Virus record (IMG/VR): IMGVR_UViG_3300044627_003967
Location: 1 to 26,843 of that record
Reading direction: 5' to 3' (one strand)
Length of the DNA stretch: 26,843 nucleotides
DNA from: a virus
Shown: piece by piece, positions 3,812-26,843 of the stretch
Layout: each line of letters starts with the position of its first letter
How positions within the stretch are numbered: the first letter of the stretch is position 1
Program-made: the position numbers and the translations under genes
Notes under the pieces: generated by a model
What the model saw: the letters and a program-made list of their open reading frames with translations, nothing else
What the model was told of the DNA's origin: nothing
Databases searched by the model: none

Positions 3812-4369
3812 TTAGGTTCCTACCTTTCTTCTTTCATTCCACCACTTTTTCATTCTTTGTGAGTGTGCTTGTTGACGGATAGGATCATTTTTATATTTTT
3901 CCGCACTTGCTTTTCCAGCTATACTTGAAATTTTAGAAGTGTCGTTATTTTTTTTTCTTGTTTCAATTGATTTTTTTATTTGTTCTTCTGATATTGTTTT
4001 GCCTTTATTGGCATTCGACAATATTTTTAAATGTTCTTCACTATTTTTTGAGTTTTTTCTACCATTGTGTAGGGCTTTCGCATGTTCTTTAGATATTTTT
4101 TTGCCTCTTTTAGCGAGTGCCATTTTTTCTCTGGTTTCCAATGTCGGTATTCTGCCTTTATTCATATTTTTATGAATCATGTGTATAATATCTTCTTTAC
4201 CAATGTGACCACTTAAAGCTTTCCAAGCAACATTGTCTTGCCAATTACCATATTTTTCCCATAATAAACGGTGAGCGTCTGCATGTTCTTCAACAGTGAG
4301 CTCAATTAAATTGGAAGGATCATCTGTTCCTCCCATGTGTTTTGGAATTATATGGTGTTTATGCTTCAT
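3812..4369 (-). CDS. Free-standing HNH homing endonuclease with NUMOD3-like repeats
   Basis: Predicted selfish DNA endonuclease, not a virion part. The N-terminus 'HKHHIIPKHMGGTDDPSNLI' followed by 'ELTVEEHADAHRLL' is an HNH fold: His5-His6, Asn20 and His29/His33 are the likely metal and catalytic positions. Residues about 71-140 carry serial 'K-G-(x)-(T/S)-x-E-x-(R/H)' units (GRIPTLETREKMALAKRGKK, KISKEHAKALHNGRK, KGKTISEEQIKKS), the DNA-binding NUMOD3 pattern. The C-terminus 'SQRMKKWWNERRK' is basic. It fits exactly between genes 13 and 14, starting one base after the gene 13 stop and ending with TAA one base before the presumed gene 14 ATT start. T4 has no gene here, so this is an intergenic homing insertion; the flanking coding regions appear intact. 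Confidence 0.93.
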   Translation of the reverse strand: MKHKHHIIPKHMGGTDDPSNLIELTVEEHADAHRLLWEKYGNWQDNVAWKALSGHIGKEDIIHMIHKNMNKGRIPTLETREKMALAKRGKKISKEHAKALHNGRKNSKNSEEHLKILSNANKGKTISEEQIKKSIETRKKNNDTSKISSIAGKASAEKYKNDPIRQQAHSQRMKKWWNERRKVGT

Positions 4370-10142: not shown

Positions 10143-10931
10143 TTAAAATGTAATACTACCTGATCCTGTAAAAGTATATATTCTATATCCACCCGACACA
10201 GAAATTGTGGGGCTACCGGTTGTGCTCTTAGCTGCTGGCAATGTATCAGAATATCTTATAATTACGATGCCGGATCCACCGCTACCCGATAAAGATGCAT
10301 CGCCGTCCGATCCACGACCAGCATTGCCTGTATTGGAAGCTCCTGAAGTATTACCTGCTCCTCCTGTGTTACCACCATCGCCGCCGACTGCATATGTTAC
10401 TGAAGATCCAGATATACTATTTGTTAAACCTGTACCTCCAATGCGGCCGCTAGCCGCAGAACCCGCACCTCCTCCTCCACCGCCGGTACAGGGTGTTACT
10501 CCAATCGTGCCTGCTCCTATAGAACCGTTATTTCCTTGGCCAGCGGTGCCTGAACCAGCGGTTTGATTTGCACCACTAACACCACCTCCACTTCCGCCGT
10601 TTCCTGCGGGTCCAAATATTGCACCAAATCCACCACCAATTGCCGATACTGTGTTAAATGATGAGTTTTGCCCAGAAGTTCCGTTAGTGTTGAACGCCGC
10701 ACCGGCGCCGCCAGCACCAACAATAATTGCGTAAGATTGATCGAAATTAAAAAAATCCATACCAGTTAATAAACCACCGGCTCCGCCGCCACCGCCTCCT
10801 ACATTAACTCCACGGCCGCCGCCGCCACCGGCACCAGCAACAATTAAATATTCAACTGAAATGGGTGACGGAGAATAACCAAATGTTAATCCACCACCAA
10901 CATTAATTCCTCGGCCTATATTAATTCCCAT
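10143..10931 (-). CDS. Glycine-rich tail fibre-type protein (short)
   Basis: A 262-residue protein with dense Gly runs. The frame is open further upstream (to 11006), but that extension overlaps the preceding gene by 65 bases; ATG 10931 gives 'MGINIGRGINVGGGLTFGYS', a normal fibre-like N-terminus, 10 bases after the previous stop. After 'VEYLIVAGAGGGGG' it has many Gly-Gly-x and Gly-x-Gly blocks (about 40-220) and ends in a beta-type tail 'SGIVIIRYSDTLPAA' to 'GYRIYTFTGSGSITF'. Gly-rich adhesins in T-even phages (gp38) are known to form bundles of polyglycine-II helices with variable receptor loops; a similar architecture here is inferred. It is a paralogue of the next gene upstream. Confidence 0.82.
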   Translation of the reverse strand: MGINIGRGINVGGGLTFGYSPSPISVEYLIVAGAGGGGGRGVNVGGGGGGAGGLLTGMDFFNFDQSYAIIVGAGGAGAAFNTNGTSGQNSSFNTVSAIGGGFGAIFGPAGNGGSGGGVSGANQTAGSGTAGQGNNGSIGAGTIGVTPCTGGGGGGAGSAASGRIGGTGLTNSISGSSVTYAVGGDGGNTGGAGNTSGASNTGNAGRGSDGDASLSGSGGSGIVIIRYSDTLPAAKSTTGSPTISVSGGYRIYTFTGSGSITF

Positions 10932-10941
10932 TTTATTTCGT

Positions 10942-11955
10942 TTATGCTGTATATGTTCCAGATGAGGTAAAAGTGTGTACCCAATAGGTAGTATTAGCAG
11001 ACACATATGTTGAAACTATTCCTCCAGTACCTCTTTGAGCTGTACTAGCATACGAAACAATTACAATACCTGAACTACCAGATCCGCCCAATGTTCCACC
11101 ACCACTGGCACCGCCGCCACCTCCTCCGCCACCGCTACCAGTATTTGGAGCAGGTGATGCACTTCCGTTACTATTACCAGATCCGCCGGCACCCCCTATA
11201 GATGATCCACCTGCTCCACCAGTTCCACCTGCTCCACCGCCTCCGCCTGCAGCATAGGTTACAGATGATCCAGTGATTGTTGAAGCTGTACCGGCTCCAC
11301 CAGCACCACCTACGCTGGTGCTAGCTGAATTTGAACCTACTGCGCCAGATCCACCGCCACCACCACCGGCAGATGATCCAGACCCATTTCCACCAGACCC
11401 ATTTCCACCATTGTTACCTTGTGATGGTGATGTTACTGGAATATTACCGGTATATCCCGTACTTGTGCCTGGAGCACTTGTATATCCACCGCCACCGCCA
11501 CCAGATCCACCGGTACTTCCAGCACCATTAAAACCACTACCTCCGCCGCCGCCAGCTGAAACTATGTCTGTTGTTAATGAAGAATTACTGCCAGCTGTGC
11601 CTCCACCATATACTGATGTAGATGTGCCACCAGCTCCAACTACAATGGTATAATTAGTTTGACTAGTTACACCAAGTGTTCCAGTACGATAACCGCCGGC
11701 GCCGCCGCCGCCTGCCGATGCCCAAGTGGAACCAGCACCACCTCCAGCACCGCCGCCTGCGACAACTAGATAATTTATAGCATAATTGAGACCCTGAAAA
11801 ATTCCCTGCCATGATCCATAAGCTTGATTGTACCACTCTATATACCCCAATGTTGTATTCAATCCCATTTGACCATTTTGAGGATTACTCGGGCGACCAG
11901 CAGTAGCCCAAGATGGTAATACTAATCCAGAGGATCCGTCTAATGTTATTGCCAT
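10942..11955 (-). CDS. Glycine-rich tail fibre-type protein (long)
   Basis: A 337-residue fibre-type protein. Residues 1-52 include an N-terminal module common in phage fibres ('TAGRPSNPQNGQMGLNTTLG', then YIEWYNQAYGSWQGI). From 'INYLVVAGGGAGGGAG' (about 60) to about 285 there are long Gly-rich tracts interrupted by short polar loops. The tail 'SSGIVIVSYASTAQRGTGG' to 'TYWVHTFTSSGTYTA' resembles that of the shorter glycine-rich protein downstream, so the two are paralogues with different N-termini. The start is ATG 11955, seven bases from the previous stop, with only a weak ribosome site, which suggests coupled translation. A gp38-like polyglycine-II adhesin is the best guess. Confidence 0.84.
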   Translation of the reverse strand: MAITLDGSSGLVLPSWATAGRPSNPQNGQMGLNTTLGYIEWYNQAYGSWQGIFQGLNYAINYLVVAGGGAGGGAGSTWASAGGGGAGGYRTGTLGVTSQTNYTIVVGAGGTSTSVYGGGTAGSNSSLTTDIVSAGGGGGSGFNGAGSTGGSGGGGGGYTSAPGTSTGYTGNIPVTSPSQGNNGGNGSGGNGSGSSAGGGGGGSGAVGSNSASTSVGGAGGAGTASTITGSSVTYAAGGGGGAGGTGGAGGSSIGGAGGSGNSNGSASPAPNTGSGGGGGGGGASGGGTLGGSGSSGIVIVSYASTAQRGTGGIVSTYVSANTTYWVHTFTSSGTYTA

Positions 11956-13229: not shown

Positions 13230-16200
13230 TTATAAAATTACCCATTTTTGTCCAGCAGCTATGTTTATAACGACATTGTTTGCTATAGATAATGGACCAA
13301 CACTGACTGCACTGAAACCAGCACCTATTGTTACATTACTATCTATAACAGTTTTATTTTGAGTAACGAAACCTACAGTAGTATTACCACCGCCGCCTCC
13401 ACCAGAAACTGTTATTTCAACATTTGCATTTGCTGCAACATTTTCCGATAAAATAATTGTGTTTCCACTTAATGAATATGTATTCTTTAATTGAATAACA
13501 CCATCTATGTTTACTACTGTGTATTCTTTACTTTCAGGATTTGTTGTGACACTAAATGTTGATGTATTACCATTTGCAATAAAGAAATTACTATAAACTA
13601 ACAAATTCACTGCGTTATTACTAACTGCAATCAATGCAGCATTTGCTGTGTCTCTTGCGTATTGATCTGTGCCTGATCCTCCTGCGTTAGCTGCAGCAAA
13701 TGCAGCATTGGCTTGTATGAAGGCTGCATTAGCCGTTTGTCTAGCTACGTTATCTGTTCCTGGACCGCCACCACCGCCGCCAGTATTCGCCACTGCGAAA
13801 GCGGCATTAGCTTGTATGAAGGCTGCATTAGCTGTGTTTCTAGCAAATTGGTCTGTGCCGGCTCCACCAGCATTAGCTGCAGCAAATGCAGCATTGGCTT
13901 GTATGTAAGCATTCGTAATATAGGTAAATACATTATACCCAGAAACATAAATGTTGCTTGATATTACATTATTCGAAATAATTTCATTGCGGAATGTGGC
14001 TGATCCATCAACATTTAAATTTTGTAAAACATTAATGTCGCCATTTATAAATGTGTTTCCTGTCAATTCAATCGTTGCCATCGGAAGTCTGTACTGATAG
14101 ACGGTATCATTGCTTGAACCAAGCATGTAAAATCTACTTCCGTCCACTTCAATGAACATACCTATTGGTGCATCATCTTGTGCAGCAACACTGAATGTTG
14201 TTGAGAATACGGCGGTACTAACATTCCACGAAGTTGATAGATTGTATATGTTAACATCATCACCGATGTTGCCCATAACAAACATTCGGGAACCATCGTT
14301 AGCAAAAGACAAATCTTGTGGTACTGTTTCTTCAGAGGCAACACTAAAAGATTGCAGGAATGTGGCTGTTGAAACATCCCAAGCTGTTGATAAAGTATAC
14401 TGATGAACAGAGTCTGTTGAAGATCCTGTCACATACATTGACAAACCATTAGGTCTAAAGAATATACCTGTTGGATTATTATCTTGACTAGAAACGGAGA
14501 ACGATTTACTTTCGTAAGAAGCTGTCGATAAATCCCAAGGTGTCGTCAACGCATATTGGTAAACGGTGTCATTGGTTTGTCCAACAACATAGAATTTAAG
14601 ACCATCTGGTCGGAAAAATAAACCTGTTGGAAAATTTTCTTGTGAAGCAACAGAAAATACTCTGACAAATGTTGCTGAAGAAACCAACCATGGAGTAGTT
14701 AAGTCGTATTCGTTTACATCATCGCCTGTCGTACCCATCACAAACATTTTCTTACCATCAGCACTAATAGACATGGCTGAAGGTGCATCTTCTTGTGTTG
14801 CGACAGAGAATGATACGTTACTATAAATGGCGTTAGCCATATCAACGTTGCTTATAACGGTATTTCCAGTAACTCTACCACCAGTATTTGCATTCAATGA
14901 ATTGTTTGCTCTGTTGAATGCACTTTGAATGAATGGTACTACATTAACACCGGATACAATTGAAGCTGATGTAACATTGATAAAATTAGAAAAAATATTA
15001 TTTGCACCACTGATATCACCATTTGCACCAGATGTTGAGAATCCATTAGCTGTTATGGTGACAATTGTGTTTCCACTAACATTGGCTATTATATTTCCAT
15101 TTGCTGTTGGAATGACAATATTGCTACTTCCGTTTGCTATAGAAGAAGATGGAGCATTCGCAGTGTATTGTACTGTACCATCAGCAAAAGTTAATCCGTT
15201 TGATGATGGTCCTGTGATTCTGATTGCACCAGAAAATAAGTTTCCTCTAGTGGCGATACCACCAGTTGAAATTATTGCACCAGTTGTATTTGACGTTGTT
15301 GCTGCGTTTGATGTGAACAGTGTTGGTTGAGAGAACGTTACAAAACCAGAGTTGAAAACGTTACCGGTACTTGTTGTGTTACCAACCTGAAAATCGCCGT
15401 CTACAGTGAATATGCCACCAACAAACAAGTTGCCCGCTATACCTACACCACCCCTAACAATTAATGCACCTGTGCTGTTTGATGTGGTTGGTCTGGTGTT
15501 TTGTATAATCATTGTCGATGTTGTGGACAATGTTAGGTTACCAGTTACTGTACCACCAGTTGTAGGTAGTGCTGCGTTTGCTGTCGTTCTCGCAAATGAA
15601 TCTATTCCGTTTACTGTCTGACCAACCCAATGACCAGTAGAATTGACAACCGGAATATTTGTGCCAACAGCAAGAAATTCTCCAGCCCAAACGTTACCAG
15701 TGGCTCTGAATGTATTATTCGCAGCATACATTAAGAAATCATTGCTAGAATAGTGTAATGTATCGCTGCCGGTAATTGTTGTGTCGGTAACAATGGGGAA
15801 ATAAGTACCTGTTGTTACATTAGTGATTCTTGCATTGATTGCAACATTAGCTGTATTAGCACTTCCAGCTGAACCAGCCGATATGGTTTGACCAACCCAA
15901 TGACCAGTCGAATTGACAACGGGTATATTTGAACCAACAGCAAGAAATTCTCCAGCCCAAACGTTACCAGTGGCTCTGAATGTATTATTCGCAGCATACA
16001 TTAAGAAGTCACCACTTGAATAATGGAATGTGTCGGCACCTGTAATTGTTGTGTCCGTAACAATTGGGAAATAAGTTCCTGTTGTTACGTTTGTTACTCT
16101 TGCGAATATGGACACGTTTGCTGTTGCAGCACTATTTGCTGTATTCGCATTTATACCAGTTGCACTATTTAATCTTGTACCATCATAGAAGATAAGTGAG

Positions 16201-17114
16201 TTTGCAACTATTTCATTTGATATGTTTGCATTTGGAACATACAAAGTATTGTTTGATAAACTAAACTCAGCATTTGAGTTAGATAGGAAACCAGTACCAT
16301 TTGCAACAATTAAAGTGTTGGCTCTGAAACCACCTAATACAGAATTTGCTCTATTGAAAGCCGCATTGGCTTGTATGAATGCTCCGTTAGCATATAAAGA
16401 AGCACCAGCCGCATTATTGGTTGCGGTATTTGCTTGTGTATATGCTGAGTTTGCGTATGATCCAGCTGTTACTGCTTTGGAGTCTGCTGTTGATGCATTG
16501 GTTGTGGCAGTATTGGCTTGTGTATATGCTGAGTTTGCGTATGATCCGGTAGTATTTTGAGAAGCGTAAGCAGCATTTGCCTGAACGAAAGCAGCATTTG
16601 CAGTAGTTCTTGCTACAGAATCTGTTGAAGAACCACCAGTGTTTGCTGCATTGAATGCTGCATTGGCGTGTGTGTAAGCAGCATTTGCAGTAGTTCTTGC
16701 TACAGAATCTGTTGAAGATCCACCAGTGTTTGCTGCATTGAATGCTGCATTGGCGTGTGTGTAAGCAGCATTTGCCTGTGCAAATGCACCGTTAGCATAT
16801 ATTCCACCTGAAGTTGAACCACCAGATGTGGCCGAAATAACAATTGTTTTTGTTGCAGTATTTGTATTGATACTGATGTTATCACCAGCAACAAAAGAAA
16901 GAGTATCTGAAACACCAGTAGCAAGTATCAGTGAGTTATTTGCATTGATGGTGTCGAATGAAAACTGGTTGGAAATGTAAGATGTTCCACCCAATGAATT
17001 CTTATAATATAGTTTACCATCGGCGTAGTTAATGGCAACCTCACCAAAGGATAAACCTGTTGGTGTGTTACCTGTTGCGCCTGATTTTTTTAACTGTATT
17101 GATGTGTTTGACAT
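13230..17114 (-). CDS. Large tail fibre with ANAAF repeats and a five-repeat propeller-like domain
   Basis: A 1294-residue fibre. Residues 1-50 are the anchor module also found in two other proteins here ('MSNTSIQLKKSGATGNTPTG', then LSFGEVAINYADGKLYY). Residues 105-265 are Ala/Asn-rich repeats (ANAAYTHANAAFNAANTGG and variants), likely a trimeric shaft; similar repeats return at 1068-1165. Residues about 330-500 hold two copies of a 90-residue unit (TYFPIVTDTTITG... to ...STGHWVGQT). Residues 768-1010 contain five 51-residue repeats of the form FSVASQ-x-x-x-x-P-x-G-(L/I)-F-x-x-x-G-x-x-(F/M)-Y-V-x-G-x-(T/S)-x-D-x-V-x-x-Y-x-L-(T/S)-x-x-W, resembling beta-propeller blades. The C-terminus is beta-type (NPESKEYTVVNIDGVIQL... 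AAGQKWVIL). It starts 4 bases after the coiled-coil gene. Confidence 0.87.
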   Translation of the reverse strand: MSNTSIQLKKSGATGNTPTGLSFGEVAINYADGKLYYKNSLGGTSYISNQFSFDTINANNSLILATGVSDTLSFVAGDNISINTNTATKTIVISATSGGSTSGGIYANGAFAQANAAYTHANAAFNAANTGGSSTDSVARTTANAAYTHANAAFNAANTGGSSTDSVARTTANAAFVQANAAYASQNTTGSYANSAYTQANTATTNASTADSKAVTAGSYANSAYTQANTATNNAAGASLYANGAFIQANAAFNRANSVLGGFRANTLIVANGTGFLSNSNAEFSLSNNTLYVPNANISNEIVANSLIFYDGTRLNSATGINANTANSAATANVSIFARVTNVTTGTYFPIVTDTTITGADTFHYSSGDFLMYAANNTFRATGNVWAGEFLAVGSNIPVVNSTGHWVGQTISAGSAGSANTANVAINARITNVTTGTYFPIVTDTTITGSDTLHYSSNDFLMYAANNTFRATGNVWAGEFLAVGTNIPVVNSTGHWVGQTVNGIDSFARTTANAALPTTGGTVTGNLTLSTTSTMIIQNTRPTTSNSTGALIVRGGVGIAGNLFVGGIFTVDGDFQVGNTTSTGNVFNSGFVTFSQPTLFTSNAATTSNTTGAIISTGGIATRGNLFSGAIRITGPSSNGLTFADGTVQYTANAPSSSIANGSSNIVIPTANGNIIANVSGNTIVTITANGFSTSGANGDISGANNIFSNFINVTSASIVSGVNVVPFIQSAFNRANNSLNANTGGRVTGNTVISNVDMANAIYSNVSFSVATQEDAPSAMSISADGKKMFVMGTTGDDVNEYDLTTPWLVSSATFVRVFSVASQENFPTGLFFRPDGLKFYVVGQTNDTVYQYALTTPWDLSTASYESKSFSVSSQDNNPTGIFFRPNGLSMYVTGSSTDSVHQYTLSTAWDVSTATFLQSFSVASEETVPQDLSFANDGSRMFVMGNIGDDVNIYNLSTSWNVSTAVFSTTFSVAAQDDAPIGMFIEVDGSRFYMLGSSNDTVYQYRLPMATIELTGNTFINGDINVLQNLNVDGSATFRNEIISNNVISSNIYVSGYNVFTYITNAYIQANAAFAAANAGGAGTDQFARNTANAAFIQANAAFAVANTGGGGGGPGTDNVARQTANAAFIQANAAFAAANAGGSGTDQYARDTANAALIAVSNNAVNLLVYSNFFIANGNTSTFSVTTNPESKEYTVVNIDGVIQLKNTYSLSGNTIILSENVAANANVEITVSGGGGGGNTTVGFVTQNKTVIDSNVTIGAGFSAVSVGPLSIANNVVINIAAGQKWVIL
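14085..14813 (-). repeat. Five propeller-like coding repeats within the large fibre
   Basis: Five consecutive units of about 51 codons, each starting F-S-V-(A/S) and ending with a Tyr-x-Leu strand and a Trp (in four of five). Conserved Asp/Gly turns and a final YQYRLP are visible. Amino-acid similarity is clear, DNA similarity is modest, so the duplication is old. Confidence 0.75.
15619..16107 (-). repeat. Direct repeat of about 220 bp in the large fibre gene
   Basis: Copies at 15619-15837 and 15889-16107, offset exactly 270 bases. The copies are nearly identical through 'gcaagaaattctccagccca' and 'cagtggctctgaatgtatta' and diverge at the edges. They encode the unit ending STGHWVGQT twice. 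A recent in-frame duplication is the simplest explanation. Confidence 0.85.
16591..16764 (-). repeat. Tandem 87-bp repeat (29 codons) in the fibre shaft
   Basis: Two head-to-tail copies (16591-16677 and 16678-16764) differ at about one base (gaagAAcc versus gaagATcc). They encode two copies of a 29-residue ANAAYTHANAAFNAANTGG-type unit and are followed by the start of a third. Near identity suggests very recent slippage or recombination and easy length variation of the shaft. Confidence 0.88.
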
Positions 17115-20638: not shown

Positions 20639-20980
20639 TTAAAATTTAGTAACTTGTGGCACAATATTAACGATTCCTTCCAGAACTCTAGTGGTATTGT
20701 TACTAGAATTTTTAATTAAAACGTCATAGACATATCTTCCAGCAGATATGTTTGCTGTATTTGCTGCACTTATAGACATGCTTAACACACCATTCACTGG
20801 TGTGGGAATGGTTATGACGAATTGAGCTGCCGAGGTACTTGAATAGTATGACTTCTTTATCTGACTTTTTGCTTGATAACCAGTTAAATCGAAAGGTTCG
20901 TTGTCTGCATCATCCAAGGTGATAGAAGTCGAGAAGTCGGCGCCTTGCTCAATGAATAATTCTTGATATCCTGCTGCCAT
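20639..20980 (-). CDS. Small Ig-like/beta virion protein, first gene of the fibre block
   Basis: A 113-residue protein. 'AAGYQELFIEQGADFSTSIT' and 'DLTGYQAKSQIKKSYYSSTS' followed by 'SISAANTANISAGRYVYDVL' and 'TRVLEGIVNIVPQVTKF' make up a compact beta-sandwich pattern that I recognise as a recurrent small structural protein in marine T4-like phages, resembling N-terminal domains of baseplate or tail proteins that bind fibres. No enzyme motif. It follows the only sizeable intergenic gap in this part of the window, which carries a late promoter, and AAAGGTAG precedes ATG 20980. The function is inferred from context. Confidence 0.8.
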   Translation of the reverse strand: MAAGYQELFIEQGADFSTSITLDDADNEPFDLTGYQAKSQIKKSYYSSTSAAQFVITIPTPVNGVLSMSISAANTANISAGRYVYDVLIKNSSNNTTRVLEGIVNIVPQVTKF

Positions 20981-21064: not shown

Positions 21065-21637
21065 TCACTCATTTGTATAGAGGAACAGATCAACTGGCAT
21101 AGCTATTCTGATGTTTCCCCTATAAGTTTCAACAAAATGATATAGAAAACTTGGAAAAACCACGGCATCACCACTCTTTGGTGTGAAAGATAGATTATCA
21201 AACCACTTTGAGAATTGATTATCATAACCTCTATTTGAGTTCTGTCTCGGATCTGTGAAGTAAATATCACCACCAACATCTATCTCTTCACACAAGATAT
21301 AAAAGATGGATGATACTGCCGCACCCTTATGGTTGTGGAAATTTGAGGCGTAGTTTTTTCCGGAACCAGTCAACCAGCCTTTTAGATTGTGACTTTTCCA
21401 ATCTGAGATTTCTTTTCCCAAACTCTCTTTCAGAAATGTATCAAAAAGTGATAACACAACTTCATCAGTAAACTTACAAATAATATCCGATTCATCGTCG
21501 AATATGTTTATGTTACTTAAATCACCTGAAGAATTGAACATGTCATATTTGGTTAAAAAATGACTGAGAAGATTATTTCTTATTTCTTCCGAAAAATCCG
21601 TTTTCAGAAATGGTGTTGGCCACAAATTCTGAATCAT
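21065..21637 (-). CDS. 2OG-Fe(II) oxygenase, 2OG-FeII_Oxy_5-like
   Basis: A 190-residue predicted iron- and 2-oxoglutarate-dependent oxygenase. The N-terminus 'IQNLWPTPFLKTDF' is typical of this subfamily. The jelly-roll core shows FHNHKG (His101, His103), 'AVSSIFYILCEEIDVGGDIY' then FTDPR, and 'PKSGDAVVFPSFLYHFVETY' with distal His167 and 'RGNIRIAM' with Arg177 for 2OG. The usual HxD is replaced by HxH, as in the TIGR02466/PF13759-like group, so the third iron ligand is not certain. Substrate unknown. ATG 21637 overlaps the previous stop as ATGA. It is unlike the two HxD oxygenases at the other end of the cassette and so represents a separate lineage. Confidence 0.83.
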   Translation of the reverse strand: MIQNLWPTPFLKTDFSEEIRNNLLSHFLTKYDMFNSSGDLSNINIFDDESDIICKFTDEVVLSLFDTFLKESLGKEISDWKSHNLKGWLTGSGKNYASNFHNHKGAAVSSIFYILCEEIDVGGDIYFTDPRQNSNRGYDNQFSKWFDNLSFTPKSGDAVVFPSFLYHFVETYRGNIRIAMPVDLFLYTNE

Positions 21638-22029
21638 AACATGAACTCTTCCATAAAATACTTTTTCACATCTGGCACCAAACCCTTTTCTTCAAAGTTC
21701 CAGTGATTGATCTTACTCAGAATTTCATCATATGTTTTTTGATCCAGTTCGTAATTTTTATAGTATGGGTCGTTGTCGAAAAGAAGAGACTGTTCTTTCA
21801 AATATTCTAGTGGTTCTCCACCAAAATATTCAGACAACCATCGTGCATAACATATGCCGACCATGTAACTTTTGGCTGGATATATCCATCCTATGTTACG
21901 ATCATTGAAATAACGAACAGCATTACCAATAATATCATCTGACATTTCAACCGATTTGGTTTTCAGATCATCATCGAAATCGGTGTTGAGTCTATGATAA
22001 ATTTCTTGTCTAATTTTCCAGTCTTTCAC
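21634..22029 (-). CDS. Unrecognised 131-aa protein in the radical SAM/oxygenase cassette
   Basis: I cannot name a family with confidence. It is a soluble, acidic, helical protein with no signal peptide or membrane segment; notable stretches are 'AKSYMVGICYARWLSEYFGG' and 'LFDNDPYYKNYELDQKTYDE'. The only cysteine is in GICYARW, so it is not itself an iron-sulphur protein. The start is GTG 22029 with AGAG 7 bases upstream; the next in-frame ATG is at residue 29 and would remove a conserved-looking basic/aromatic N-terminus. It overlaps the radical SAM gene by 20 bases and the oxygenase by ATGA, so it is co-translated with both and may be a substrate-binding partner, adaptor or substrate. Confidence 0.82.
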   Translation of the reverse strand: MKDWKIRQEIYHRLNTDFDDDLKTKSVEMSDDIIGNAVRYFNDRNIGWIYPAKSYMVGICYARWLSEYFGGEPLEYLKEQSLLFDNDPYYKNYELDQKTYDEILSKINHWNFEEKGLVPDVKKYFMEEFML

Positions 22030-22918
22030 GATACCACTCTATTAAAAATTTATAACCATTGCAACTATTATTTAGATCCTTGACGTAACGATAGTGTTCT
22101 GTCAGGCATTTACCATAAAACTCACAACTTCTACAGATATCACTAACGTTGTTTCGTTTTTCTTTTTGTGTCCATTTAAGGTAGTCTTCCCAACTATCCA
22201 GTTCCAAAAAATATTCATTGTCATTTAAATCGAATTCCAGTACAGCAAATTTACCATTTGGTGTGATGTAGATGTGGTCATCACTGAATGCATTTCGGTT
22301 ACCATTCAGAACATCTTCAATATAATATTCGTTAATGAATTCAAAGTTTTTTTGTAACGGGCTTTCGATCCACTTTTTAACAAACTCCTCAAAGTCTTTG
22401 TGTGTGACGGGATGTTGATTTGCCTGGTTGGTGCTGTAAGGTTTTATTTCCACACTTCTCACACTACTACACATGTTCATCGATAATATAAAATCATCTA
22501 CATCCATCTGTAATACTTTGGGGCTAGCCAAGACCAGTACGGCTATGGGTACTGGGCTCATCAACATGTTCTGATAAACTCTGTCTGACTTTTCTCTGGC
22601 TACCCAATCGTAACTAACACTCAGGTAGAAATCATCTTCATAAAAACCTTCATGCAACATTGAATAGTTGGTATTGATATTGATTTTGCCACTATAGTGT
22701 TTGCGAATCGTGTCTCTCAATCCATAAAAGTAGTCTTTCTTTAATGTACCAATTTCACCACCATACAAATCAACATGTTCTATGTTTGGTATCTGTGATA
22801 ACAAATCATCTAGTTTTTCTAATTCTATTTTCTTCTGGTCAGACAACTGTTCTTCCGTCAGATAACAAAAGTCACATCTGAAGTTACAGAAGTAACTGGG
22901 ATTAATAGAAACATTCAT
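22010..22918 (-). CDS. Radical SAM protein with reduced SPASM-like C-terminus (rSAM-C)
   Basis: A 302-residue radical SAM enzyme. Cys11, Cys15 and Cys18 in 'YFCNFRCDFCY' form the CX3CX2C site for the SAM-bound 4Fe-4S cluster; 'HVDLYGGEIGTL' supplies the GGE motif (53-55) that binds the SAM amino group. The C-terminal part has 'CRSCEFYGKC' (Cys262, 265, 271: CX2CX5C) and Cys286, but lacks the first SPASM cysteine pair: the equivalent 'YITPNGKFAVLEFD' has no cysteine. So it probably holds one auxiliary cluster, or a twitch-like domain. ATG 22918 overlaps the stop of the preceding radical SAM gene as ATGA, arguing for stoichiometric synthesis. Substrate unknown; SPASM-type relatives often modify peptides or proteins. 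Confidence 0.9.
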   Translation of the reverse strand: MNVSINPSYFCNFRCDFCYLTEEQLSDQKKIELEKLDDLLSQIPNIEHVDLYGGEIGTLKKDYFYGLRDTIRKHYSGKININTNYSMLHEGFYEDDFYLSVSYDWVAREKSDRVYQNMLMSPVPIAVLVLASPKVLQMDVDDFILSMNMCSSVRSVEIKPYSTNQANQHPVTHKDFEEFVKKWIESPLQKNFEFINEYYIEDVLNGNRNAFSDDHIYITPNGKFAVLEFDLNDNEYFLELDSWEDYLKWTQKEKRNNVSDICRSCEFYGKCLTEHYRYVKDLNNSCNGYKFLIEWYRERLEN

Positions 22919-23985
22919 GGGTATTCTCTAACATACGGTGTAGGCTCCAGAATACCTGTCATTCCATTTGACTCGATAATATCTGGTGCCAACAGTTTCA
23001 TTTTAGAACAGTGTTCTTCCACCAAGTCATGGTCTTTTAAATCTTTGATTGTTTTCTTGCAACCATTACAAATTTGAAACATTGGGCAAGTGAAACAAGA
23101 ACTTTTAAGGCTCTGTATTTCTGGTTGAAATCTCAAAGGAAATATTTTTTCACCTGACATTTCTTTTTCGAAATCTATTTGATAAAGTTTATCGTCACCA
23201 AATGCACCGCAACTATAATAGTCACCACTAGGTTGTAATGTTCGGATGTTTGCATCACAGTTTCTATTTTGTGGGCAAGTGGTTGCATGACCAACCAGTC
23301 TTTTTACCATCTGTTTTGTGTTATATTCCCACTTTGTCAAATCTTTTTTCCATATTTCAACATATATTTTATACATATATGCCAGTAAATATGGTTGCCC
23401 TTGTTGGCCCATGGTAATGTTTTTAAATTTTACCGGAGGTCCACTACTGAACGCATAGTTCAATTTACATTCCACATCCATTTCCTTGGCCAGTTCAACG
23501 TTCTTGATGGCTAGATGTTCATTCTCCTTAGTGATAACACTTATGAAGTCCGGGCGATAACCAACAACGTCCAGCATCATATCACTGACGTTCCAGAAGT
23601 CTTCTTCACTGAACTCTGTCAAGTCACCTTTGAGTCTACCACCACCATATTGGAAACTGGTTGTAATACCCATGCGAGGATGCGTAAACAGTTCGGTCCA
23701 TTTTTTGGGATTCTTATAGAATGGCCATAGATTACTGGTAAATGATATGCGAGCATCACTACCAATTTCATTCAGATGTTCAATTATTTTCCAGTAATAT
23801 TCTGGGCTCATCATTAGTGGATCGCCACCATTAACAATTATGGTATTTGTTTCTGGATATCTCTTTAAAAACTTAAAGATATATTCGTGATCCAACTCCG
23901 CTGTCTTATCATCGGTGATGTGCGTACTTGAACAAAAGGTACACTTGAAGTTACACTTTTCAGTGGGTTTAATAATTAATTCCAT
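22915..23985 (-). CDS. Radical SAM/SPASM protein (rSAM-B)
   Basis: A 356-residue radical SAM enzyme. 'EKCNFKCTFCSS' gives CX3CX2C (Cys11, 15, 18); 'IIVNGGDPLMMS' gives the GGD/GGE-type SAM motif (53-55). The C-terminus has a near-canonical SPASM layout: Cys243-X10-Gly254-X4-Cys259, then 'CFTCPMFQICNGC' (Cys297, 300, 306, 309: CX2CX5CX2C) and Cys326, enough for two auxiliary 4Fe-4S clusters. The 'LQPSGDYYSCGAFGDD' text matches the 'PSG-x-x-x-x-CG' seen in SPASM proteins such as peptide maturases. It begins 15 bases after the fused oxygenase and overlaps rSAM-C by ATGA. A peptide or protein substrate is the family-based inference. Confidence 0.92.
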   Translation of the reverse strand: MELIIKPTEKCNFKCTFCSSTHITDDKTAELDHEYIFKFLKRYPETNTIIVNGGDPLMMSPEYYWKIIEHLNEIGSDARISFTSNLWPFYKNPKKWTELFTHPRMGITTSFQYGGGRLKGDLTEFSEEDFWNVSDMMLDVVGYRPDFISVITKENEHLAIKNVELAKEMDVECKLNYAFSSGPPVKFKNITMGQQGQPYLLAYMYKIYVEIWKKDLTKWEYNTKQMVKRLVGHATTCPQNRNCDANIRTLQPSGDYYSCGAFGDDKLYQIDFEKEMSGEKIFPLRFQPEIQSLKSSCFTCPMFQICNGCKKTIKDLKDHDLVEEHCSKMKLLAPDIIESNGMTGILEPTPYVREYP

Positions 23986-24000
23986 GACAAAATTTTAGAT

Positions 24001-25101
24001 TCAATATGTCCAAGTGTAATGAAAGATGAATGTGTATCTATTAATGTCGCGTTTGATTAAGTTCCGAATGCCATGTTTGAAGATTGGTGCAGAATTGTTT
24101 ACCAATACCATGACACCATCGTTTGGTAAAATGGTTTTGGTGTTTGTTATTTCTGAATTCACTTCTTTCATAATATTAATGTAACCACCCCACTCTTCTT
24201 TCCAGTCCTTTTCTTCTGTCAGATAACAGAAAACCATTAGGTCAGAACCATCGATTGCATCAACGTGATGTGGTGAATTCTCACTGCCATTCCAGAAATG
24301 AAGATACTTTGTGATGGCATTTGGTGGTCTATACATCCTTAAAGGTGAGAATGTATCATCTTTGATCAGATCATCCGAAATATCAATTAAACTCTTTGGT
24401 GCATTTGTGAAAATGTCTGCACCAATTTTTCTTTCGTAAGATGGTCTATCATATCCGGTAGGATCAACATAATGTTTTTCGTTTTCGTGATACCAGTCTG
24501 GAACTTTTTTGTAAGTTGATTTCTTTGCATCGATCCATTTGGTATTTCTGACTTCTTCCCATAATCTTTCGTGAATATGAGGAGGAATTTTGGTCACAAC
24601 GAAACCTTTATCGAAATATTCTTCAATGAAATCAATATGGTAATTTCTGTTTGAACCTGCGGCAGAATTCGCAACAATCAATCCACAAATCGTATCAAAT
24701 TCACCTAGTTTTTCTTCATTGAATTTTTGTTTAGTATCATACAGTTGTTCAAATTGTGTATTGTAAACTGGTTGAATTTTTTTATTTGTGATTACATCTT
24801 TTATTAAGTTTGCCGTGTATTGTATACAGTTTATTGTTTCATCTGAATGATTTCTGAAAACTGTAAACGACCTTTTGTATCTGTTCAGTTGAAAGTAAGA
24901 ATCATCTTTACCTTCTTCGATATCATAGGAGTAAACACCACCTTCCACATGCAATTCACCCATGAATATGTCGATGACCATGTGTATGTCTCTGCGAAGC
25001 AAGTCATATTCAAATTTAAAATCTGTATATGTTCTTTGAACGTAATGAATTGCCTCCGAGGCAATGAAATCTTTGTTTAATTCAATTAATGGTAATATCA
25101 T
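24001..25101 (-). CDS. 2OG-Fe(II) oxygenase with an extra N-terminal domain (2OG-B)
   Basis: A 366-residue two-part protein. Residues about 1-160 ('LNKDFIASEAIHYVQRTYTD', 'HMVIDIFMGELHVEGGVYSY') match nothing I can name. Residues about 165-366 are homologous to the 209-aa oxygenase at 26103: shared blocks are W-x-E-V, K-x-(V/I)-P-x-W-Y, (R/S)-x-x-YERxIG, and LxFWNGSE. The iron site is HVD (His279, Asp281) with distal His343, and Arg355 in 'DINRYTFIFHY' for 2OG. A TTG four codons upstream is possible, but ATG 25101 has GGAA at a good distance. It overlaps the rSAM-A gene by 20 bases. Reaction is probably hydroxylation of an unknown substrate. Confidence 0.87.
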   Translation of the reverse strand: MILPLIELNKDFIASEAIHYVQRTYTDFKFEYDLLRRDIHMVIDIFMGELHVEGGVYSYDIEEGKDDSYFQLNRYKRSFTVFRNHSDETINCIQYTANLIKDVITNKKIQPVYNTQFEQLYDTKQKFNEEKLGEFDTICGLIVANSAAGSNRNYHIDFIEEYFDKGFVVTKIPPHIHERLWEEVRNTKWIDAKKSTYKKVPDWYHENEKHYVDPTGYDRPSYERKIGADIFTNAPKSLIDISDDLIKDDTFSPLRMYRPPNAITKYLHFWNGSENSPHHVDAIDGSDLMVFCYLTEEKDWKEEWGGYINIMKEVNSEITNTKTILPNDGVMVLVNNSAPIFKHGIRNLIKRDINRYTFIFHYTWTY

Positions 25102-26101
25102 TTTCGTTTCCAACTTTTAAATCAACATAGTCATAGACTTCTTTTAACCAACATGTGTCTTGAGTTCTCATGTCTTTCACGTGATTGCTCATAAAACACC
25201 CCATAGTACACCTTTGTAGGTGTTCGCATTCGTAACAATTGTAACTATCAAACCATTGTTGTTCAGTCACAACTTTAATAGGTATAACTTTCTCCAAATT
25301 CTCAAAGTAACCACAACCACCCCATTTTCCAGATGGCATAACAGTATGCGTATCCATGCATGACATTTTGTTTGCGGTTTTATTGGCAAATGTTTTGAAC
25401 GGATGACAATTGTTCCAGTTCTCAAACATGTACTTCATAAAGTCACGAATCTCAATGTCTTTCGCCATTAGAAATTCATGGTTTTTTCCTGGTCCATAAT
25501 AATCAAAATAGATTGGAAAGTTTTCGTACAAGTAATCAAAAAACGGTACATTGTCCGACATGAATTTATCTATATTTGGCTTCGTCATAATGACGTTGAC
25601 ACTGATTATATATTCTTTAAAATCTTGTATGTTTTTTTTGTAGACTTCAAAAGTTTTTTTGTTGAATCTACCTGACGGGTCATAACTAGTCATAACCGAT
25701 ATTTCGTTATCGTCCAGAAATTTCTTTATTCTTTGTTTCTTTTCCCATATAAAGTTGGTAATGAAAGAAACTTCTAAAGGTATGTTTATTTCTTTGCCGT
25801 ATGCCAGTAATTTCTTGGTGAGTTCGGCGTAGTCGTCGAATACTTTATCTTCTACTGTATCCGAGAATAATTCTCCACCCATCATGTGTATGGAGATTTG
25901 CTTTTTGCCTTTTTTTATTTGCTGGTCAATTGACAATTTAATTGAGTCAAATTTACCAACTATTGTATCGATACCCTCATAGCTATCGTGGTCTTGGTTG
26001 CAGAATAAACAACTCAGATCACAATATTCAAACAGTGTTACAATAATTTCACCAGTATCTGGTCTCTTATTGTGTATATTCAATACATGTTCAGCTATCA
26101 A
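25082..26101 (-). CDS. Radical SAM/SPASM protein (rSAM-A)
   Basis: A 339-residue radical SAM enzyme with textbook motifs. 'EYCDLSCLFCNQ' gives Cys27, 31 and 34 (CX3CX2C); 'ISIHMMGGELFS' gives GGE (75-77). The SPASM domain is complete: Cys248-X9-Gly258-X4-Cys263, then Cys289-X2-Cys292-X5-Cys298-X3-Cys302, and Cys317, the seven-cysteine pattern of anSME-like peptide/protein-modifying enzymes. There is no ATG near the N-terminus; the frame upstream runs to a stop without one, so TTG 26101 is taken as the start, one base after the stop of the first oxygenase gene. A second TTG at 26083 is an alternative. Substrate unknown. Confidence 0.92.
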   Translation of the reverse strand: MIAEHVLNIHNKRPDTGEIIVTLFEYCDLSCLFCNQDHDSYEGIDTIVGKFDSIKLSIDQQIKKGKKQISIHMMGGELFSDTVEDKVFDDYAELTKKLLAYGKEINIPLEVSFITNFIWEKKQRIKKFLDDNEISVMTSYDPSGRFNKKTFEVYKKNIQDFKEYIISVNVIMTKPNIDKFMSDNVPFFDYLYENFPIYFDYYGPGKNHEFLMAKDIEIRDFMKYMFENWNNCHPFKTFANKTANKMSCMDTHTVMPSGKWGGCGYFENLEKVIPIKVVTEQQWFDSYNCYECEHLQRCTMGCFMSNHVKDMRTQDTCWLKEVYDYVDLKVGNENDITIN

Positions 26102-26102
26102 T

Positions 26103-26732
26103 TTAAAACCACTTGTAAATAAAAGAGAAGGTGTATCTATTTATTGATGTGTTATGAAGTTTTTCTACCTTGTGCATGACAAGTGGGTTTGCATTGTTTA
26201 TAACCAACATAGTTCCATTATTAGGAAGAATTTTTTGTTCATAATGACAAATGTTGCCGACTTGTTTCTTCATGGTTATAGAACCGCCCCATTCACTCGA
26301 CCACTTTTCGGAGTCTGTAAGATAAATCAGAATGAGCGTGTCACATCCATTTATCGTATCGAAATGGTAATCTATACTCTCTGAACCATTCCAGAGATCA
26401 ATGTATTTTAATTCGTGTGATTTGTAGTAAGTTCTGAAAAAATCAAATTGATCATTCTCTATAAGTTTATTGCCAATTTTTATCAGTGTGATCGGAGTCT
26501 TTTCGAAAACTTCTTTTCCAATCAGACGTTCATATTCGGATCTATTTGAACCATCTTTCTTCAATTCATATTTGTTTTTCTTTTTGTACCAAGAAGGTAT
26601 TTGTTTGTAGATACCCTCTTCCGAATCATTCATCCACTCAGTCAGATAAACTTCCGACCAAAGTAATTTCAAGATATCATCAGGTACATTCGATTGAAAA
26701 AAACCTAAATCATAATAATCATTTTGTTTCAT
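26103..26732 (-). CDS. 2OG-Fe(II) oxygenase (2OG-A)
   Basis: A 209-residue predicted Fe(II)/2-oxoglutarate dioxygenase. The double-stranded beta-helix core has HFD (His123, Asp125) in 'SIDYHFDTINGCDTLILIYL', the strand 'SSEWGGSITMKKQ', a PNNG turn ('KILPNNGTMLVINN'), distal His187 and Arg199 in 'SINRYTFSFIY' for 2OG. This layout is typical of prolyl-hydroxylase-like oxygenases of PF13640 type. It is a paralogue of the C-terminal half of 2OG-B (24001), with the radical SAM gene rSAM-A between them. ATG 26732 overlaps the upstream stop as ATGA. The substrate cannot be told from sequence. Confidence 0.87.
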   Translation of the reverse strand: MKQNDYYDLGFFQSNVPDDILKLLWSEVYLTEWMNDSEEGIYKQIPSWYKKKNKYELKKDGSNRSEYERLIGKEVFEKTPITLIKIGNKLIENDQFDFFRTYYKSHELKYIDLWNGSESIDYHFDTINGCDTLILIYLTDSEKWSSEWGGSITMKKQVGNICHYEQKILPNNGTMLVINNANPLVMHKVEKLHNTSINRYTFSFIYKWF

Positions 26733-26842
26733 CTAAGTTGATATGATTTCAATTGTTCCGAGTTTTGATTTAATACATGATCCAACAAGTAGATGTTGAT
26801 GTGTTCTTCGTCGCTAGATGGATAAACTCTACTGTTCGATGT
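26729..26842 (-). CDS. C-terminal end of an unknown upstream gene, cut by the window edge
   Basis: On the minus strand one frame is open from the window edge to a TGA at 26731-26729, giving 37 residues (TSNSRVYPSSDEEHINIYLL... ending KSYQLR). The other frame tested, starting at the edge base, closes quickly. The TGA overlaps the ATG of the oxygenase gene as ATGA, the same coupling seen twice further on, which is the main support for a real gene. Too short to name; by position it belongs to the same cassette. Confidence 0.6.
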   Translation of the reverse strand, partial: TSNSRVYPSSDEEHINIYLLDHVLNQNSEQLKSYQLR

Positions 26843-26843
26843 A

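Follow-up and report, generated by a model that had tools for sequence, protein, structure and literature searches.

The 26,843-base virus record IMGVR_UViG_3300044627_003967 (the window, taken at its full length) carries seven minus-strand genes, mostly overlapping, for three radical S-adenosylmethionine (rSAM) proteins, three 2-oxoglutarate-dependent (2OG)-Fe(II) enzymes and a 131-residue protein. These genes are part of a cassette of about twelve linked genes, which is probably a phage-encoded system resembling those for ribosomally synthesized and post-translationally modified peptides (RiPPs), and which would modify a protein here called PRE, fibre-associated and probably part of the virion, at its C-terminal tail. 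The candidate substrate is encoded directly after a fourth rSAM gene (rSAM A), and its normal tail is (CHxS)3-RxRR, following a body of about 170 residues. The gene set, its linkage, the invariance of the tail, the intact metal-binding motifs and the nearness of fibre genes are established at the level of sequence; from these we infer that PRE is the substrate, that it resides in the virion and that it has an adhesive role. The coordinated modification pathway postulated in the initial annotation is supported by the conserved gene set, the metal-binding residues and the linked protein with its invariant tail. The first of its proposed targets, the fibre proteins encoded downstream, was near the mark and probably wrong, since the best candidate, PRE, is encoded upstream, with a tail-fibre gene on one side and the remaining cassette genes on the other.

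PRE is linked to the enzymes and ends in an invariant tail

Relatives of rSAM C, which is the best conserved protein of the cassette, were encoded in 89 IMG/VR stretches. We kept 80 loci, which correspond to about 64 groups (near-identical contigs stayed in the counts), and counted the 60 that extend 7 kb or more upstream of the match, dropping the 20 with less. The PRE gene was found in 56 of these 60 loci, always on the same strand as the rSAM genes (56/56), and the first PRE gene directly followed rSAM A in 49 of the 56. Among 58 PRE copies, which comprise 48 distinct 22-residue ends, RxRR closed the protein in 57 and CHxxCHxxCH was present in 56. The loci had been selected by an enzyme and not by the tail, so the invariance is no artefact of the search.

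The 190-residue PRE of the contig L028 (see below) ends VCHASCHSSCHGSRSRR. The proteins at the same position end CHTSCHASCHSSRSRR in Sinorhizobium phage Phosso, CHSSCHASCHNSRSRR in Agrobacterium phage Atu_ph07, CHTSCHTSCHSARGRR in Pseudomonas phage pPa_SNUABM_DT01 (DT01) and CHSSCHTSCHGSRGRR in both Burkholderia phages SURPRISE13 and FLC6. In 400 random pairs from 54 loci, drawn only from loci with a single PRE and a standard tail, mean identity was 32% for the PRE body, 77% for the last 16 residues and 64% for rSAM C. PRE is a protein with a fast-changing body and a frozen tail, and the body diverges faster than rSAM C.

The reverse scan, for CHxSCHxSCHxSRxRR in IMG/VR, gave a sample of at least 120 stretches. 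Among the matches listed, a cassette rSAM gene was present in 114 of 120 loci, and a tail gene was still found in five of the other six. Alignment A1 (87 thinned PRE sequences minus six, with that of L028 placed first, 82 rows) and alignment A4 contain rows that were found by the tail motif; their tail invariance is therefore biased and was not used as evidence.

The other families were also present in most or many of the 60 loci: rSAM A in 59, P239 and rSAM B in 57 each, rSAM D in 53, the cupin, O2 and P345 in 49 each, O1-type oxygenases in 42 and O7-type oxygenases in 32. Since the same set recurs in similar order across dozens of contigs, it goes beyond chance. Rare co-occurrence, with separate housekeeping homologues for the individual genes, had been named in advance as the outcome that would speak against a common pathway. 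The genes are instead nearly always together, and no tested protein scores near an NCBIfam equivalog cut-off.

Gene content of the cassette

The cassette continues past position 26,843, and so the fourth rSAM gene, a cupin gene and the likely substrate are invisible in the window. They were read from L028, an IMG/VR contig of 156,657 bases, which shares a stretch of 13,926 bases with the window without a difference and is therefore taken as the same phage. Upstream of the window end, the order of genes in L028 is 1001-residue fibre-type protein, cupin, rSAM A, PRE, P239 and P345. The features are as follows.

L028 4945-5517: PRE, 190 residues, directly after rSAM A, ends CHASCHSSCHGSRSRR
26729..26843, minus strand: 3' end of P345, conserved accessory protein (345 residues; L028 6220-7257), truncated by the window edge
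26103..26732, minus strand: O7, PF13640-type 2OG-Fe(II) oxygenase, 209 residues, HxD...H...R (PF13640, E 4.1e-7)
25082..26101, minus strand: rSAM B, radical SAM/SPASM, 339 residues (phrog_1802, 8.2e-43; PF04055 below cut-off)
24001..25101, minus strand: two-part protein, N-terminal domain of about 150 residues and second PF13640 oxygenase (PF13640, 3.3e-6, residues 278-364)
22915..23985, minus strand: rSAM C, radical SAM/SPASM, 356 residues (PF04055, 2.5e-10; phrog_1802, 1.6e-61)
22010..22918, minus strand: rSAM D, radical SAM, 302 residues, reduced auxiliary region with 4 Cys (phrog_1802, 2.2e-32)
21634..22029, minus strand: O2, conserved 131-residue accessory protein (phrog_20737, 7.1e-48)
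21065..21637, minus strand: O1, PF13759/phrog_81-type 2OG-Fe(II) oxygenase, 190 residues, HxH...H...R (PF13759, 3.7e-10; phrog_81, 5.4e-22)
20639..20980, minus strand: flanking gene of LtfC-like, L-shaped tail-fibre assembly type, context and not cassette (PF23926, 7e-7)

The junctions described in the initial annotation were reproduced at its coordinates. ATGA overlaps lie at 26729, 22915 and 21634. Of the remaining junctions, two are gaps of 1 base (26102) and 15 bases (23986-24000), and two are overlaps of 20 bases (25082-25101, counted from the ATG start, and 22010-22029). The open reading frame (ORF) of the two-part protein spans 24001-25113 and opens with TTG at 25113, with the alternative ATG start at 25101. 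Its first 150 or so residues had no Pfam match of note, and in the phage collection 24001..25101 had no tblastn match at E<=1e-3. Its PF13640 domain and O7 are paralogues (39% identity over 205 residues), as had been claimed for the two HxD...H...R oxygenases, and the third oxygenase does belong to another subfamily.

All three rSAM proteins of the window match phrog_1802. For PF04055, rSAM C scores above the cut-off, rSAM D is borderline and rSAM B is below. The cupin of L028 matches JmjC_2 (PF08007) at 1.5e-9; characterised members of this family hydroxylate Arg or His. P239 matches phrog_20767. No significant sequence relative of O2 was found in the PDB. We considered O2 as a precursor and rejected it, as it has no repeat or invariant tail and its conserved residues are spread along its length.

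Conservation of the metal-binding residues and carrier phages

Residue conservation was read from family alignments of 54 to 94 sequences each, from which near-duplicates and sequences outside 0.8-1.6 times the query length were left out. In the families of rSAM B, C and D, the CX3CX2C and GGE/GGD motifs noticed in the initial annotation are kept at 96-100%. Two of the proteins had been credited with complete or near-complete SPASM cysteines, and this agrees with seven such residues in rSAM B (C248, C263, C289, C292, C298, C302, C317) and eight in rSAM C (C237, C243, C259, C297, C300, C306, C309, C326); rSAM A, like these two, has seven or eight. The auxiliary cysteines of rSAM D are only C262, C265, C271 and C286. 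The O7 family retains H123, D125, H187 and R199 at 98-100% (54 rows), and the O1 family H101, H103, H167 and R177, which is the HxH and not the HxD form.

Searched separately by tblastn against 50,697 phage records, rSAM C, rSAM B and O2 each found the same seven records, namely Burkholderia phages FLC6, FLC8 and SURPRISE13, Atu_ph07 (two records), Phosso and DT01. The identity of rSAM C to its relatives in named jumbo phages is 57-64%. Five annotated named-phage regions show a similar cassette order with extra upstream genes; in Atu_ph07 the O2 gene is separate from the cassette and inverted. In a quick tree of rSAM C with long branches, bacterial rows were intermixed with a few viral contigs, and no direction of transfer was drawn from it.

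Two genes annotated as dihydrofolate reductase (DHFR) lie inside the Burkholderia phage cassette (L006 10852-12029, L008 10816-12029). Nucleotide hypermodification, at which these neighbours hint, was rejected, DHFR genes being present only in two Burkholderia regions among the five named-phage regions.

Body and tail variants of PRE

Members of the PRE family have 130-310 residues. No Pfam or NCBIfam model matches PRE, and its last 44 or so residues match phrog_35144 (unknown) at 2.9e-7, no other part matching a PHROG. The AlphaFold2 model, built from 78 aligned sequences, has a mean predicted local distance difference test score of 87 and predicts a body of helices and strands, with residues 176-190 at low confidence and without structure. 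Four viral models match PRE at E<=0.001, including A0A2L0UZF9 of Atu_ph07 (E 5.7e-8), the 296 residues of which equal the length of gp170. A PDB sequence search gave no useful relative. The L117 protein joins a PRE-type N-terminus to a Gly_rich_2 domain (PF21722, 1.8e-10), a domain associated with phage tail adhesins.

The number of repeats and of PRE genes varies. The PRE of L083 has five repeats, and in that of L072 (6006-6713) the tail is expanded into an array of fourteen CHxx units interspersed with three VPV spacers. Tandem precursors occur in L034 and L061, and two or more tail genes were present in 31 of the 120 motif-scan loci, among the matches listed. In a second architecture (L034, L061, L113, L124, L171 and others), a tandem pair of short PRE genes precedes rE-type rSAM genes, and the A/C/D/O2 block is more distant or inverted where the locus extends that far. 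A tail gene and cassette genes were also seen in L137 (IMGVR_UViG_2706796094_000001, 222,888 bases).

Virion and fibre context

The gene content of the window is of the myophage structural type, with terminase parts and proteins of head closure, tail sheath stabiliser, baseplate and fibre type. The gene just upstream of the cassette has a tail-fibre PHROG match in both L028 and Phosso; in L028 it is the 1001-residue protein, which matches phrog_22593 (unknown) at 2.5e-17 and phrog_19602 (tail fiber protein) at 1.7e-8. An upstream gene with virion or tail matches lies directly beside the cassette in DT01 and one gene further away in FLC6. In the window, the LtfC-like gene of fibre-assembly type comes after the cassette; its PHROG matches are phrog_1084 (unknown, 1.5e-28) and phrog_3304 (tail, 2.2e-24).

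For Atu_ph07, the sections of PMC6102473 consulted report 131 virion proteins by electrospray ionization tandem mass spectrometry, most of them from "CDS 31-76, CDS 170-215, and CDS 284-329". The CHxS-tail protein is gp170 in GenBank, and the GenBank and published numbers agree where checked (gp140 is a tail sheath in both). On this basis, PRE would be encoded by the first gene of a virion cluster.

The cassette on bacterial chromosomes

A tail scan of the genome collection returned 25 stretches. The PRE gene was present in 11, and the other 14, which had no cassette gene at the locus, were taken as chance matches. Eight genomes were examined for terminase. In G007, terminase and tail are on the same contig, which is therefore a phage contig inside a bin; in G006, they are on different contigs. 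Other loci are chromosomal. L266, from a metagenome-assembled genome (MAG) titled Halobacteriovoraceae, is flanked, by eye, by acyl-CoA and hydroxyacyl-CoA dehydrogenase genes, and the flanks of L267, on a 228-kb contig, look by eye like ABC-F and cbb3-oxidase genes. Of 129 genomes from the order that holds the Halobacteriovoraceae MAG, 13 have a gene for rSAM C (E<=1e-30), in one case on a contig of 4,153,408 bases, and these 13 also have one for rSAM A (E<=1e-40). To judge by the titles of the MAGs, the carriers are presumably predators.

Together, the bacterial loci hold rSAM A-E, the cupin, O2, PRE and P239 in varying orders. HxSRGRR closes all 11 bacterial PRE proteins listed, and each tail carries a single CH close to its beginning, as in YCHGNFPPPCHGSRGRR, WCHSSHSSHSSHSSRGRR and YCHSNHCSHSNHGSRGRR. 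Nine of the 13 genomes have, next to the cassette, a gene for a protein with Peptidase_S74 at its C-terminus (PF13884, 8e-13 to 4.6e-17 in four tested), the other four being represented by short contigs or by part of one contig only. In the nine genomes, which are interrelated, S74 matches number only 2 to 19 per 3.3-4.2 Mb, which makes adjacency by chance unlikely. Searched as a profile, the bacterial S74 protein also found eight ORFs in other loci, including L016, L027, L031, L032 and L108.

Two further kinds of genes accompany the bacterial cassettes. A conserved protein with the pattern VWNxVWND...VAGWVLAxVDKEYE adjoins the S74 gene (L285 14056-14640, L288 14715-15296, L266 7698-8324, L291 15333-15884); it occurs in 8 of 15 bacterial loci and, at E<=1e-5, in none of the other loci, and it matches neither Pfam nor PHROG. 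Small proteins with an Arg-Arg pair near the N-terminus are encoded at L285 12503-12868, L288 13121-13495, L266 8431-8730 and L295 9214-9594, and these N-termini are possibly Tat-type signals.

Comparison with known systems

In rSAM/SPASM RiPP maturation (PapB, DynA, sulfatase-maturase-like enzymes), as here, a SPASM rSAM enzyme is encoded beside a protein with invariant C-terminal repeats. A precursor with a conserved core lies beside the maturase (56/60 loci, RxRR in 57/58 tails), and CX3CX2C and the auxiliary-cluster cysteines are intact, rSAM D having only four of the latter. The cassette differs from these systems in that four or more rSAM enzymes and several 2OG/JmjC enzymes occur together, and in that the candidate substrate is a folded protein of fibre loci with 130-310 residues. 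PapB-type and sulfatase-maturase-type enzymes act on Cys or Ser. With TIGR03942 (anaerobic sulfatase-maturating enzyme, cut-off 349.45 bits), rSAM C scored 47.3 and rSAM A 43.3 bits, and with NF047865 (PapB ranthipeptide maturase, cut-off 340) rSAM A scored 47.6 bits. These scores are so far below the cut-offs that no chemistry can be named.

The His-Xaa-Ser (HXS) system (HxsA-D), the product of which is given as unknown in the part of PMC9062424 consulted, also combines HxS repeats with rSAM partners, and the bacterial tail of L294 is itself an HxS repeat. In seven of eight HxsA loci, however, the repeats are followed by a C-terminal region of another kind, 110 residues long or more (the eighth locus has in-frame stop codons). 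Four PRE proteins had no match to the HxsA model TIGR03979 at E<=1. With the HxsB/HxsC models, rSAM A reached 36 bits (cut-off 370) and rSAM C 28.5 bits (cut-off 267.9). By these scores and the position of the repeats, the cassette does not belong to the HXS system. In HXS loci of about 3.6 kb, from which the HXS rSAM genes may lie partly outside, cassette families matched only at E 3e-4 or weaker.

The mosaic adhesive trimer (MAT) fibres of Bdellovibrio carry S74 and are reported, in the part of PMC10769870 consulted, to take part in prey recognition and invasion. The phage-type S74 chaperone domain is shared with the proteins encoded next to bacterial cassettes, which differ from MAT fibres, as far as these are described there, in being shorter and partly prepilin-like. 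PRE has no Pfam match to S74, the domain sitting in the neighbouring bacterial gene, and the term "radical SAM" does not occur in the main text of PMC10769870.

Clustered rSAM genes in a large phage have a precedent in the multi-rSAM modules of Campylobacter phages CP220 and CPt10, to which the consulted section of PMC2853527 assigns no function; CP220, which is in the phage collection, was absent among the tblastn matches of rSAM A, B and C. Papers on carrier phages list cassette genes without a function (PMC11898562 and PMC8066314, in the passages covered), and the whole word "SAM" is absent from the covered text of the jumbo-phage review PMC7824862. In the open-access full text covered, neither the tail motif nor a phage that modifies one of its own virion or fibre-associated proteins with several rSAM and 2OG enzymes was described.

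Proposed function and alternatives

We suggest that the four rSAM enzymes, the JmjC-type cupin and the three 2OG-Fe(II) oxygenases would act on the tail of PRE, with P239, P345 and O2 as putative accessory proteins. The Cys, His, Ser and Arg residues of the tail would be the obvious targets, and cross-linking, oxidation or hydroxylation may be the outcome. Modified PRE would then be fitted to the fibre or tip apparatus of the virion, where its tail would touch the host envelope or help to penetrate it. The same system would be at work beside S74-type fibre proteins in some bacteria of predatory lineage. The window's own fibre proteins were set aside as substrates; PRE is far better linked, and the search of the fibre proteins was not exhaustive.

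Several observations weigh against this proposal. No PRE was detected in four of the 60 loci (L013, L023, L047, L086), of which L023 starts at a contig edge, within P239. The tail of L036 has no RxRR, and the bacterial tails of L291 and L294 have no Cys repeats. No Pfam or NCBIfam model for an RRE-type leader-binding domain matched the cassette proteins, and neither P239 nor PRE supplied an RRE-like domain by fold: P239 matched nothing in the PDB by fold at E<=0.001 and nothing significantly by sequence, PRE matched no PDB chain at E<=0.001 with Foldseek, and 0 of 632 chains re-aligned with VIA-align reached Z 2. Among four S74 neighbours, the N-terminal methylation (prepilin) motif exceeded the Pfam cut-off in only two, being weak in one and absent in one. 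The case for gp170 as a virion protein is strong but not final, as it depends on the cluster boundary in the text of PMC6102473. Lastly, the action of the enzymes on PRE is a reading from gene sequences, and the tail could be an unmodified metal site.

Such a site is the core of the alternative that survives best, which we nevertheless regard as unlikely. The CHxS tail would be a metal-binding tip for piercing or adhesion, and the enzymes would act elsewhere, on other fibre proteins, a host protein or a glycan. The invariant Cys and His residues are typical metal ligands and tail-type genes are nearby. However, PRE sits next to rSAM A and the other genes of the set in nearly every locus, and on bacterial chromosomes too. 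Furthermore, RxRR, which offers no metal ligand, is as fixed as CHxxCHxxCH (57/58 and 56/58), and the L294 tail WCHSSHSSHSSHSSRGRR, with its single Cys, is still accompanied by the enzymes.

A free RiPP, with the modified tail released by cleavage to act inside the cell or after secretion as a bioactive peptide (antibiotic, exclusion factor or signal), is a decidedly unlikely product. The layout, with rSAM and 2OG enzymes beside an invariant C-terminal core, is that of a RiPP cluster, and rSAM A and C are weakly similar to the PapB, DynA and AnSME models. Against this, none of the cassette genes in the window or L028 matched a peptidase, transporter or exporter family for the release of a product, and the PRE body is a conserved family with a fold that is confidently predicted. 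The PRE gene also lies beside virion genes, in Atu_ph07 at the edge of the cluster defined by mass spectrometry in the consulted part of its description.

Auxiliary metabolism, in which the enzymes would produce or alter a small molecule, nucleotide or sugar and PRE would be their neighbour by coincidence, is very improbable: DHFR genes are annotated within Burkholderia phage cassettes, and the published annotation, in the passages of PMC11898562 covered, treats the genes as accessory and the DHFRs as nucleotide-related, but rSAM A, B and C have seven or eight SPASM-region cysteines, as in peptide-modifying enzymes, PRE is present in 56 of the 60 rSAM C loci, and no kinase, synthetase or transferase family matched in the set of this phage at the thresholds used.

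Modification of the PRE tail, if true, would explain a group of genes that many large phages carry under the labels "hypothetical" and "auxiliary", and would have as its substrate one small protein with a directly measurable mass. It would also connect phage attachment, by a common chemistry, with the fibres of predator-related bacteria. Enzymes acting on a short C-terminal sequence would also be useful as peptide-modifying catalysts. More tentatively, and with the odds rather against it, giant phages and bacteria of predatory lineage may share a maturation machine that makes a multiply modified, non-standard (CHxS)n-RxRR tip on a fibre-associated protein in contact with the envelope. This would be a virus-made, post-translationally built chemical device for attaching to, or opening, Gram-negative cells.

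Further observations

Three features of the window lie outside the cassette. A gene resembling HNH homing endonucleases (3812-4369) is located between the head-closure and head-tail adaptor genes. Two neighbouring, overlapping ORFs (10143-11955) both match phrog_2295. A large ORF without a PHROG match (13230-17114) contains two 215-base segments (15619-15833 and 15889-16103), which are about 89% identical and 270 bases apart.

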